Part shown: positions 48,249 through 51,733 of the stretch, piece after piece
Layout: each line of letters starts with the position of its first letter
Position numbering within the stretch: the first letter of the stretch is position 1
Source: Blastococcus sp. HT6-4
Lineage (GTDB): Bacteria > Actinomycetota > Actinomycetes > Mycobacteriales > Geodermatophilaceae
Direction: 5' to 3'
Length of the DNA: 64,000 nt
Assembly (NCBI RefSeq): GCF_039679125.1
Contig: NZ_CP155551.1
Coordinates: 2,666,001 to 2,730,000 of the forward strand
Program-made: the position numbers and the translations under genes
The notes under the pieces: model-generated
Seen by the model: only the letters and a program-made list of their open reading frames with translations
Database searches by the model: none
Told to the model about the DNA's origin: nothing

Positions 48249-48734
48249 GTGAGGGTCTGGTTGCTGGTGTACGGCGTGCTCTACGTCGTCATCGAGATGA
48301 CCGGCCACGCCCTGGCGACGGTGGGCTGGCCGCACATCACCGCCCTCGATGTGGCGACGGCGGTCACCGACGCCTTCCTCACCGTCGCCGTGGCCATGGC
48401 CGCGCTCCTCGCCGCCCAACTCGGTGCGCGGCGCTGGGGCCCGCTGCTGGCGACCCGGGGCCGATCGGGTGAACCGGTCGAACTGCTTCCCGACCGGCCG
48501 ATCGGCGTGCGGTCGTGGCGGCCGGCGCCCCTGGCCCTTCCCGGTTCCTCGGCACCGACCGGAGGCCCCGGCACCGACACCGACACCGGCACCGGCACCT
48601 ACGGAAGCGGGGCCTACGGGACGAGCACCCCCACGGTGGGGACCTACTCCGTGGGTGCGCGCCTCGGCCGCGGTGATCGGCGCGGGCGGCGACTGGCGCC
48701 GGCGTTCCCGGAGGAGTCCGGCCACCTGCTCTGA
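48249..48734 (+). CDS. Two-helix membrane protein with Gly/Thr-rich tail
   Basis: A 161-residue protein with GTG start and a GGAGGAG site upstream. Two hydrophobic helices at the N-terminus (VWLLVYGVLYVVIEMTG; AVTDAFLTVAVAMAALLAAQ) are followed by a disordered cytoplasmic or external tail with a Thr-Gly/Tyr-Gly run (GTDTDTGTGTYGSGAYG). It ends in RRLAPAFPEESGHLL, a motif found again in untranslated-looking DNA near 51338. Function unknown. The region 48735-49014 after it holds nothing I can support. Confidence 0.6.
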   Translation: MRVWLLVYGVLYVVIEMTGHALATVGWPHITALDVATAVTDAFLTVAVAMAALLAAQLGARRWGPLLATRGRSGEPVELLPDRPIGVRSWRPAPLALPGSSAPTGGPGTDTDTGTGTYGSGAYGTSTPTVGTYSVGARLGRGDRRGRRLAPAFPEESGHLL

Positions 48735-49014: not shown

Positions 49015-50478
49015 TCAGACCCCGGCGCGGTAGTGGTCGGCGATCTGCCCGGCCGTCAGCTCGCGCGTGTAGACGGACGCGTGGGCCAGGTATCCCCGCC
49101 AGTGCCCGCCGTAGGTGTTGTCCGGCCAGGCGTCGGAGATGTCGTCGTACCCCAGGCGCCAGTAACCGGTGTAGTTGCGCGGCGTGGTCATGGTGGCGTC
49201 GCCGGCCACGCGTGCACCGTCGACGTAGAGGTACGAGCCGGCGGCGGAGACGGTGACCGTCGCGAGGTGCCAGCGGTTGTCGTTGTAGGGCAACGGCGTC
49301 CGGATCGTCCGCGGCGTCGTCCCGGGCCGGAGGCCGAAGTACAGATTGCCCGAGTAGCTCATGTAGAGCAGCCGGTCGTGGTAGATGGAGTCACCGACGG
49401 GGTCCCGCGCAAGGTCCATCAGGACCCCGCCGTATCCGGTCGACGTCCGGAACCAGATGCTCAGCGTGAAGACCGTCGGGTTGGCGATGGCGTCCGTCGT
49501 GTAGACGTACCCGTAGGTGCCGTCCAGGTAGACGGCCCGGCCGCCGTCGCGGGGGCACGGGCCGCCGGCGCGGCCGAGGTAGGTGCCGGCGGCGGTGTAC
49601 GTGGCGTTCTGCGGCGTTCCGGCCGTGTCGTAGGCGGTGGAGCCGCTGGTCTCCTGCAGCCCGTAGTAGCGCTGGGCGACCGACGTACCGGTGATCCCCC
49701 CGGCTCCGACGTCGCGGGCCGCGTTCGCACAGGTGTAGTAGGTGCCCGAGCCCCAGGCGTCGCCGGCGTTGCTCGTGGTGCTGGCCAGGGCCGCGCCCGC
49801 ACCGGTCAGATCGAGCACGGTCAGCACGGTCAGCACGGTCAGGGCGCCGGCGCCGAGGCCGAGCAGCCGGAGCCGCCACCGTGCGCGGCGCACGTGATCG
49901 CGCTGCGGCGGGGACGCCGGCGCGGCCGGCAACCGGAACCACGTGGCGGCCGGCAGGAGCCCCGCGACGGCAGCCCCGGCGGCCAGCACCGGCGCCCACC
50001 GCCCCTCCTGCGCCCACACCACCACGGCGCCGGCCCAGGGCACCCGGAGGGAGGCGATCCCGTGCACCCGCGCGGCTTCGACCGGGGATGTGTCGGGCTC
50101 GGCGTTGGCGTCCCCCTTGAGCCAGAGCCGCCCCGCGTCGTCCACGTCGTGCAGCCGGTGCAGCAGGAGCTGGCCCTGGCGTTCGGGGTGGTCGACGAGC
50201 AGCACCCGGCCCGGGACGAGCTCGGCCACCGCGCCGGGGCGCACGACGACGACGTCGCCGGTGTGCAACCGGGGCTCCATGGAACCCGACAGCACCACCG
50301 TCGACTCCCAGCCCAGGGCGGCCGGCGCGACCGACCACAGCAACAGCCCGGTCACCAGGGCCAGCAACGCCCGCGCGACCGCCGCGACGACGAGCGCGGC
50401 CCAGCTCCCGCGCAGCCCCCCGGACGCACGTCCGGCCCGGTGCGCCCCCCGGCGCCGCGGGCTCGGATCGGTGGTCAC
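49015..50478 (-). CDS. SipW-like signal peptidase fused to a LamG domain
   Basis: A 487-residue fusion. Residues 25-55 form a membrane helix; the ER/archaeal-type signal peptidase core follows with nucleophile S66 in VVLSGSMEPRLHTGD, His107 in LLLHRLHD (His where bacterial type I enzymes use Lys) and Asp123 in KGDAN. Two more hydrophobic segments follow (AGAVVVW; residues 163-180). A further helix at residues 203-230 runs into ALASTTSNAGDAWGSG, which resembles a TasA-type export and cleavage signal, then a LamG-like jelly roll (YVYTTDAIANPTVFTLSIWF; RWHLATVTVSAAGSYLYVDG). GTG start with AGGAGA. It lies 39 bases after the TasA-like gene, same strand. Confidence 0.85.
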   Translation of the reverse strand: MTTDPSPRRRGAHRAGRASGGLRGSWAALVVAAVARALLALVTGLLLWSVAPAALGWESTVVLSGSMEPRLHTGDVVVVRPGAVAELVPGRVLLVDHPERQGQLLLHRLHDVDDAGRLWLKGDANAEPDTSPVEAARVHGIASLRVPWAGAVVVWAQEGRWAPVLAAGAAVAGLLPAATWFRLPAAPASPPQRDHVRRARWRLRLLGLGAGALTVLTVLTVLDLTGAGAALASTTSNAGDAWGSGTYYTCANAARDVGAGGITGTSVAQRYYGLQETSGSTAYDTAGTPQNATYTAAGTYLGRAGGPCPRDGGRAVYLDGTYGYVYTTDAIANPTVFTLSIWFRTSTGYGGVLMDLARDPVGDSIYHDRLLYMSYSGNLYFGLRPGTTPRTIRTPLPYNDNRWHLATVTVSAAGSYLYVDGARVAGDATMTTPRNYTGYWRLGYDDISDAWPDNTYGGHWRGYLAHASVYTRELTAGQIADHYRAGV

Positions 50479-50517
50479 GGGTCTCCTGCTCGGGGCGGTC
50501 GGTCGGGAGGGCGGGTG

Positions 50518-51108
50518 TCAGGAGCTCTGGGCCTCCCAGGTGAAGGTGATCGATGCGGTGCCACCCTGGGTGCTCTGCGGAGCAGCGGAGTCGAACGTCC
50601 ACGCGAACCGGTACGTCCGCGAGGCGGCGCTCGCGCCGGTCGGGGCCCAGGTGCCGTAACCGGCCGCGTGCGTGGTGGCGGTGAAGCCCGCCAGGGTCCC
50701 CGTGTAGATACCGGCACCGCTGAAGTCCGAGCAGTCGGTCGCCGTTCCCGCGCCCTCGCTGACGGTCAGCTGGAGATACGACGACAGACCGTTCGTGGTG
50801 GTCAGGCCGGTGCCGTACAGCTTCACCGTGGACGGCACCGTGCCCTCGGACGTGACCACGATGCAGCGGTTGCCCGTCGAACCGGGCATCAGCCGGTCCG
50901 CGCTGAACATCGCGACGCCGGAGTCGTTGTCCGTCAGCCGCACGCTGCCGGCGGTCCAGTTGTTGACGCCGTTGCTCGTCGTGGACGAGAACGCCGAGTA
51001 GGACGTCTGCCACACGAGCAGGACCGCGACGGCGAGGCCGACGAACGGTGCCGCGACGAAGCCGAACTTGGCCGCGCGGGCGCCGGGGCGCCCCGTGGTG
51101 CGGATCAT
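50518..51108 (-). CDS. TasA/camelysin-like secreted protein
   Basis: A 196-residue exported protein. Basic N-terminus, one hydrophobic helix (FGFVAAPFVGLAVAVLLVW) and a SYSAFSSTTSNGVNNWTAGS cleavage region, the pattern of SipW substrates such as TasA, TapA and camelysin. The mature part is beta-rich with one Cys pair (NRCIVV, TDCSDF) and no catalytic motif. TasA forms amyloid-like fibres in Bacillus biofilms; by analogy this is a surface fibre or adhesin. ATG at 51108 follows CAGGAGACC. The neighbouring peptidase is the expected processing enzyme. Confidence 0.82.
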   Translation of the reverse strand: MIRTTGRPGARAAKFGFVAAPFVGLAVAVLLVWQTSYSAFSSTTSNGVNNWTAGSVRLTDNDSGVAMFSADRLMPGSTGNRCIVVTSEGTVPSTVKLYGTGLTTTNGLSSYLQLTVSEGAGTATDCSDFSGAGIYTGTLAGFTATTHAAGYGTWAPTGASAASRTYRFAWTFDSAAPQSTQGGTASITFTWEAQSS

Positions 51109-51529
51109 GGAGGTCTCCTGGGATCGGGATCTACGCCCTCGGTCGCCGTACGGCCACGTCGGACCTCCCAGGTATCGGCCGGAGTATCGCGCACTACAGA
51201 GTTGCGACCACGACTCACCCTCGAGGGTGAGTCGAGAGCCGGCCGCGCGCTCCGCGCACGTCCGCCCGGCTCGGAGCACCGACGCGGTCGGCGCCTCCGG
51301 ACCCCTGTCGGGCCGCCGGGGACGACGGGTCTCGCCGTCGTTCCCGGAGGAACCCGGGCACCTGCTGCGACCCTCGGGGCGGGCACCAGCAGCCCCCGCG
51401 GAGAGTCGCAGGTCACAGTTGTGCCGCGTCGGTGTTCCCTTCTGGCGATCTTTGGCTAGGGTTGGGCCTGTCGGGAAGGCCCTGCGCATTGGCAGGACCC
51501 CGATGCACCACCTCAGCTAGGAGCGAGCA
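51109..51529. other. Intergenic region upstream of cspA with a repeated motif
   Basis: This 421-base region holds the promoters of the divergent TasA-like and cspA genes. On the plus strand near 51335-51365 a short stretch reads SPSFPEEPGHLLR, matching the C-terminus of the 48249 protein (APAFPEESGHLL) both in peptide and in most bases, without being part of a convincing gene. The cspA leader includes AGGAG at about 51518. No reliable -35/-10 boxes could be picked. Confidence 0.4.
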
Positions 51530-51733
51530 ATGCCCGAAGGAACTGTCAAGTGGTTCAACGCGGAGAAGGGGTTCGGCTTTGCCACCCCCGACGGCGGCGG
51601 ACCGGACGTCTTCGTCCACTACTCGGCCATCCAGTCCAGCGGGTACCGCTCGCTCGATGAAGGCCAGCGGATCGCGTTCGACATCGAGCAGGGCCAGAAG
51701 GGCCCGCAGGCCGCGAACGTCACCCCGCTCTGA
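51530..51733 (+). CDS. cspA: Cold shock protein
   Basis: A 67-residue cold-shock-domain protein that binds single-stranded nucleic acid and melts RNA structure. RNP-1 KGFGFAT and RNP-2 VFVHYSAI are intact ([18 protein letters not shown], residues 1-18). ATG is preceded by AGGAG. Its stop codon lies inside a 19-base tandem duplication, and a long hairpin terminator follows. Confidence 0.97.

Follow-up and report, generated by a model that had tools for sequence, protein, structure and literature searches.

In the window, by which we mean the whole stretch of 64,000 nucleotides of Blastococcus sp. HT6-4 analysed here (host genome of 4.3 Mb, one contig, high G+C), two adjacent genes on the minus strand are best read, with moderate confidence and on grounds of sequence and of analogy, as a surface-filament cassette of the SipW/TasA type. 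Its peptidase appears to be fused to a second substrate resembling TapA; cleavage at the junction would then allow the LamG part to join or start the filament. As far as sequence comparison goes, both the fusion and the substrate-like character of its junction can be confirmed, and they are widespread: at least 42 peptidase-LamG fusions are spread over 35 genomes with 11 family codes among the sampled actinobacteria.

Gene layout and domain composition

The fusion (49015..50478, minus strand; 487 aa, GTG start), delimited by profiles, a codon-model gene call and homologues, starts 39 bases after the gene of a TasA/CalY-like exported protein (50518..51108, also minus; 196 aa, ATG start), which was called with the codon model and linked to its family via relatives. 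They are flanked by a small gene (48249-48734) and a cold-shock protein gene (51530-51733), both on the plus strand. The initial annotation of a 487-residue ER-type peptidase joined to LamG is borne out by TIGR02228, Laminin_G_3 and the codon-model gene call. The peptidase part with the helices TM1 and TM2 (aa 24-182, 49933..50409, minus strand) was delimited by alignment and matches TIGR02228 (ER-type signal peptidase I, S26B) over aa 38-167 with 59.7 bits at a cut-off of 51.85; the SipW equivalog model NF046067 gives 52 bits, below its cut-off of 190. By its profile matches the peptidase is thus SipW-like and of the ER type, with the Bacillus SipW equivalog excluded. The LamG domain (aa 319-480, 49039..49524, minus strand) matches Laminin_G_3 with 65.7 bits (cut-off 27.6) and the S-layer domain protein 4qvs with an E value of 1.2e-06. 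AlphaFold2 run without an alignment on the two window proteins gave pLDDT values of 41 and 40.

The catalytic residues had been given as S66, H107 and D123. The first two stand, and the third is uncertain. In an alignment count, the Ser, the His, Asp123 and Asp129 are all kept in 40/40 of the peptidase-LamG fusions tested, so that D123 and D129 are equally invariant, and in the alignment with SEC11A the catalytic Asp of that protein, which we take to be its D122, falls on D129 of the window protein and favours this residue. For the signal peptidase complex, a Ser-His-Asp triad and an S56A mutant are confirmed in a passage of PMC13385932.

Upstream of the TasA-like gene lies a perfect 24-bp palindrome, CGACTCACCCTCGAGGGTGAGTCG (51211-51234), the core of which occurs at a single place in the window genome. 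None was found in the upstream regions of relatives that were searched. It is a possible operator.

Distribution of the fusions

Homologues were searched in overlapping samples (60 relatives, and genomes of the family (112), order (150), class (197) and phylum (198)), with the fusion as the first query and then with an alignment of peptidase and linker (A3), and the loci were sorted by gene calls and three small HMMs for the peptidase, LamG and TasA-like parts. A single-protein search of the genome contigs returned two weak relatives. The search for other fusions that the initial annotation had proposed yielded at least 43 peptidase-LamG proteins, one of them (L051) a decayed remnant, which leaves the 42 fusions in 35 genomes mentioned above; these counts are lower bounds because only part of the matches was fetched and read. 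One of the proteins runs off its contig (L107) and in another (L114) the LamG part is cut short by a stop. Most of the 43 carry one LamG domain (38 proteins), four carry two and one carries three. Within the window's own family a full-length fusion match was found in 21/112 genomes, and a TasA-like match was found in all 21 of these fusion-bearing genomes versus 27 of the 91 others.

Nine further proteins join the same kind of peptidase to a cargo other than LamG: an RCC1 propeller in L133 (cut by the contig start), an Ig-like domain (Big_7) in L173, and cargos without a clear family in L132, L143, L165, L177, L202, L205 and L206, those of L177 and L205 matching zero Pfam families at the cut used. 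The peptidase of L165 (4298-5353) has a third helix; its cargo has no Pfam match but looks by eye like a cellulose-binding module, and the gene is flanked on both sides by TasA-like genes. L040 was left out of this group, its tree label as an other-cargo fusion having come from tail length only, with a third helix not seen.

The TasA-like partner gene

A TasA-like gene lies upstream of the fusion, on the same strand and within 300 bases, in 37 of 40 cases, and also in two fusions added later (L201 and L203), which makes 39/42; in 16 of the 37 it overlaps the fusion by 4 bases. Among the unfused peptidases of the same set, 18/29 have such a gene upstream. Three fusions depart from this. Two are second copies, one in G119 and one in G128, and the loci fetched for them have their TasA-like gene in another place; the third is L038, in which a frame that looks TasA-like exists but is out of frame with a hydrophobic segment before it. 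The expectation that a TasA-like gene would always be adjacent therefore holds nearly always (37/40, then 2/2 of the later ones), not without exception.

Neither PF12389 (camelysin/TasA) nor any other Pfam or NCBIfam model matches the TasA-like protein of the window. PF12389 does match five of ten members of the A2 alignment at E values up to 1 (best 2.6e-06), and five of seven further relatives, of which L130 (26.6 bits) and L210 (24.5 bits) exceed the cut-off of 22.5. A profile of the N-terminal part has five PDB matches, headed by the TasA structures 5of1 and 8aur with non-significant E values of 0.25 and 0.27, and the alignment sets a conserved Trp opposite the Phe of TasA's ATFASGTLDL. 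It is through its relatives, at the sequence level, that the window protein would be linked to TasA. Matches of the TasA-like profile to the MS2 coat protein covered positions 126-188 only and were gone with the N-terminal profile; we took them as chance.

A recurring cluster was seen in L040, L136-L141 and L144. It encodes a TasA-like protein, an unfused peptidase (not called in L139), a second TasA-like protein with a long tail at its C-terminus, and a protein of some 550 aa; seven of the eight loci (the exception being L141, where it was not seen) have a further exported protein carrying the signal motif described below.

A signal-like segment at the junction

Between the peptidase and the LamG part the window fusion has the basic end of a cytoplasmic loop and a third hydrophobic helix, TM3 (aa 199-226, 49801..49884, minus strand), which together look like an internal signal peptide. 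They are followed by a predicted cleavage site, placed by the matrix scan described below, and a donor-strand-like stretch (aa 227-245, 49744..49800, minus strand), with AGA before the site and ALASTTSNAGDAWGSG after it, so that the predicted cut lies between A229 and A230. In the neighbouring TasA-like protein the signal ends in TSYS and the mature part would begin with AFSSTTSNGVNNWTAG. The two proteins had been said to match residue by residue in this region, and they are indeed in register, with 8/16 residues identical. This wording was too strong, however, since 23/60 shuffled fusions give a 16-mer as good, and the pairwise match in the window alone is not beyond chance.

The family offers a better measure. 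A matrix covering P3-P15' was built from the signal regions of 69 of 83 TasA-like genes, without using any fusion (the other 14 scored too low, in some cases because the signal had been lost in the gene call), and was run over whole proteins. Its best site falls inside the junction zone, defined as the end of the peptidase to 30 residues into LamG and on average 25% of the protein, in 38/40 peptidase-LamG fusions, and 36/40 outscore 95 or more of their 100 shuffles. A threshold of 10 is reached by 30/40 fusions, by 0/32 unfused peptidases (shorter than 300 aa; best score 0.35) and by 18/557 other genes of the loci. In 17 of these 18 genes the site lies within the first 76 residues, and the separate cargo genes of L209-L211 and the called cargo half of L134, a broken fusion, are among them. 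At its junction the window fusion scores 17.8, which none of 100 shuffles reaches; its second-best site has 2.3. At the weak end, 10/40 fusions score below 10, L107 and L122 peak outside the junction zone, L116 peaks elsewhere within it, and L107, L118, L120 and L122 do no better than shuffles. Homologues with a linker devoid of any such motif, which would have spoken against the initial proposal, were looked for; most keep the motif, the latter four being weak. For the fusions with other cargo the count of 6/6 is weak because the zone comprised everything after the peptidase; on visual inspection, all six, and likewise five proteins found later, have the site behind a third hydrophobic stretch.

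Across 46 junctions (40 LamG and six other-cargo fusions) the loop after TM2 is rich in Arg and Lys, and the last 12 residues before TM3 are more basic than acidic in 43. The matrix-placed sites have Ala at P1 in 43/46, a small residue at P3 in 45/46 and Phe, Tyr or Trp at P2' in 43/46, although the P1 and P2' counts are inflated because the matrix itself placed the sites and L107, L116 and L122 were corrected by eye. Without correction, Ala at P1 and an aromatic P2' occur together in 38/46 fusions versus 51/449 background genes (those scoring below 10 with the full matrix) under the same placement, which gives an aromatic P2' in 131/449 of them. A crude set of 36 other secreted-looking proteins has four with an aromatic P2', at least two of them SipW-type cargo genes. 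An aromatic P2' is described in the accessible part of PMC10269814 as marking TasA as a substrate of SipW rather than LepB, and as present in 0/143 verified E. coli LepB substrates. Leu occupies this position in the window copy and in L037, and Met in L171.

Beyond the cleavage site

The resemblance to TasA-like proteins does not end at the cleavage site but extends into the part that serves TasA as donor strand. The commonest letters, given here as a description, are AxA before the cut and xF[ST]ATTxNxxN[TS]W after it. In B. subtilis this strand consists of TasA residues 28-38, right after the SipW site, and F29, I32 and F39 belong to the interface (PMC9674648, in part).

A column correlation of 0.58 over P5'-P16' was discarded as proof, being circular (shuffles gave 0.60-0.62 and background genes 0.51-0.57). 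When the register was set by P3-P4' alone within the zone, the correlation was 0.47; controls run on whole proteins gave 0.18-0.32 (shuffled sequences), 0.19 (unfused peptidases) and -0.09 to 0.17 (background genes). In split-half scoring with the register again set by P3-P4', the P5'-P15' half exceeded 3 bits in 23/46 fusions, in 1.6% of 920 zone shuffles and in 0/449 background genes. Conversely, with the register set by P5'-P15', Ala at P1 with an aromatic P2' was found in 26/46 fusions, 7/920 zone shuffles and 4/449 background genes. By this strict measure, the two halves belong together in about half of the fusions. The likeness of the N-terminus to a donor strand holds in this way for the family; the window copy, in spite of its high score with the full matrix, is misplaced and fails when P3-P4' sets the register, because of its Leu at P2'.

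In B. subtilis the mature TapA starts with AFHDI and TasA with AFNDI, TapA is far scarcer than TasA and about as abundant as SipW, and a strain secreting just residues 44-57 of TapA forms a proper biofilm (PMC10151520, in part). Taking these N-termini together with the split-half match, the actinobacterial fusion looks like SipW plus a TapA-like protein with another head. The V-set Ig domain that follows the N-terminal strand in TapA is not seen in the window fusion, which has LamG there. By analogy, then, the window fusion may perhaps work like TapA, but it is not TapA.

Split forms, losses and origin

Some loci carry the peptidase and its presumed cargo in separate genes. The order in L145 is a TasA-like gene, a peptidase of 192 aa and a separate LamG gene of 381 aa overlapping by 17 bases, with an N-terminal signal that ends GTGAVFTSTTRNNGNTF. 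In L209, L210 and L211 the peptidase gene is likewise followed by one with such a signal, the product being Ig-like by sub-threshold matches in L209 and L210. L174 was not counted as a split pair of peptidase and LamG, owing to an unread contig base where the frame changes. In L134 (3582-6339) a TasA-like gene is followed by peptidase matches in two frames, which may reflect a frameshift or a sequencing error, and by a cargo resembling the RCC1 part of L133.

The window genome itself has a second, split cassette of the SipW type (C1:1020466-1022104; L048 7467-9105, G000) that encodes a protein judged CalY-like by eye, together with a peptidase and a small protein that has a SipW-type signal, the signal region ending in ASAGFGDT; response-regulator-like genes lie beside it.

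In a tree of the peptidases (82 rows, a quick search, with 38/79 inner branches open), 32 of the 42 LamG fusions lie in one starred group together with one LamG-deleted copy, and on the starred branches alone the LamG label has to change at least four times. A 99% branch separates L038, which is placed in another subfamily, but its row is long and the program calls its placement unsure. The label changes and L038 indicate that the fusion probably arose more than once or was often lost, and the mix of cargos and peptidase lineages suggests a repeated origin in the actinobacteria. Losses can be seen as well. L127 (G128) lacks nearly all of LamG, and at the syntenic place of the window cassette, beside the cold-shock gene, G031 has the decayed remnant (L051 10346-10894), while G077 and G099 have the fusion at this same site (L119 and L120) and no cassette was found there in G035 (L045 2615-4144).

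Cleavage, anchoring or simple co-expression

We propose the following mechanism for a cassette with a TapA-like second substrate. TM1, the outer catalytic domain and TM2 would make up an ordinary ER-type peptidase, and the basic loop with TM3 would act as an internal signal peptide. The enzyme would cut after its own AxA, either in cis or between neighbouring copies, leaving TM3 with the peptidase and freeing the LamG part, and would also remove the signal of the TasA-like protein. The start of the freed part resembles the mature start of the TasA-like protein, which is the donor strand in TasA, so it could slot into the first TasA-like subunit and be the initiator, a cap or a tip adhesin, in the way proposed for TapA in Bacillus. 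Cargo release by SipW-type cleavage is likely for the family and less sure for the window copy. The earlier claim that the peptidase carries its own cleavable substrate stands as regards a substrate-like segment and retained catalytic residues; self-cleavage in cis is a prediction. A donor-strand role of the released part, argued by analogy, has the support of the split-half result for the family, and glycan binding by LamG and a role in biofilm are predicted properties. The most specific version, in which one polypeptide cuts itself, exposes a TasA-type donor strand on an interchangeable head (LamG, RCC1 propeller or Ig) and so starts the filament at the site of processing, is put forward tentatively, its chances being somewhat below even.

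Two other readings start from the same segment. TM3 could be an uncleaved anchor that keeps LamG on the membrane, with the donor-strand-like stretch binding the first TasA-like subunit. The mean hydrophobicity of TM3 (2.20) does not set it apart from TM1 (2.50) and TM2 (2.29), so a stable anchor is conceivable, and the stretch after the site that is shared with TasA-like proteins in the split-half comparison would suit this arrangement too. A plain anchor, however, would not need the Ala at P1 and aromatic P2' that 26/46 fusions have, against under 1% of controls, and in the split forms the same segment stands as an N-terminal signal; we hold this reading unlikely. It is also improbable, in our judgement, that the fusion merely couples expression, with LamG released by whichever signal peptidase and secreted as a lectin that has no role in the filament, and with the motif reflecting no more than SipW recognition or common descent of signal segments. 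Leu at P2' in the window copy might suit a general signal peptidase, to judge from the excerpt of PMC10269814, and other exported genes near these peptidases share the signal (17/557). Against this, P5'-P15' are in register although the cargo folds differ, and the TasA-like partner is nearly always adjacent. That the whole arrangement is chance or an annotation artefact, from read-through of neighbouring genes or a decaying locus, we regard as scarcely credible: degraded copies do occur (L051 in G031, L127 in G128, and L114 with its LamG ended by a stop), but so many fusions in 35 genomes and 11 family codes, with the catalytic residues kept in the 40 tested, would not be expected from it.

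Comparison with known systems

A cassette in which the peptidase is fused to its second substrate and cut at the junction would be closest to tapA-sipW-tasA of B. subtilis, where a dedicated ER-type peptidase is likewise encoded beside TasA and a minor second substrate has a mature N-terminus resembling the TasA donor strand, cut before xF (PMC10151520, PMC9674648 and PMC10269814, each in part). Unlike B. subtilis, the actinobacteria studied here have the second substrate fused to the peptidase, with LamG (elsewhere RCC1 or Ig-like) in place of the Ig domain of TapA, and the gene order is TasA-like, then peptidase-cargo. In the sipW-bsaA system of C. perfringens, SipW is needed for extracellular BsaA and its polymers, and the available sections of PMC7395162 describe BsaB, BsaC and BsaD as separate putative secreted proteins and no fusion. 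A model for B. cereus with SipW, TasA, CalY and CapP has SipW process three secreted filament proteins, all from separate genes, and the word LamG is absent from the main text (PMC13082335). The archaeal threads are donor-strand filaments and the bundling pili have been compared with TasA, and for both the accessible part of PMC9715654 describes no peptidase-substrate fusion. Among the listed titles and abstract openings of the literature on SipW and LamG, on fused signal peptidases with LamG, on SipW and SEC11 in archaea and Actinobacteria, on TasA in Actinobacteria and on self-cleavage of signal peptidases, we found no description of a peptidase-cargo fusion.

A signal peptidase with a substrate in its own chain would be unusual. 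The natural fusion joins the peptidase, a second substrate and the filament gene in one testable unit for which exact N-termini are predicted, and members of the family supply many natural variants that differ in their heads. The substrate-like part of the fusion and the neighbouring gene of a fibre-like protein hint that a single protein may process a surface fibre and also help to start it.
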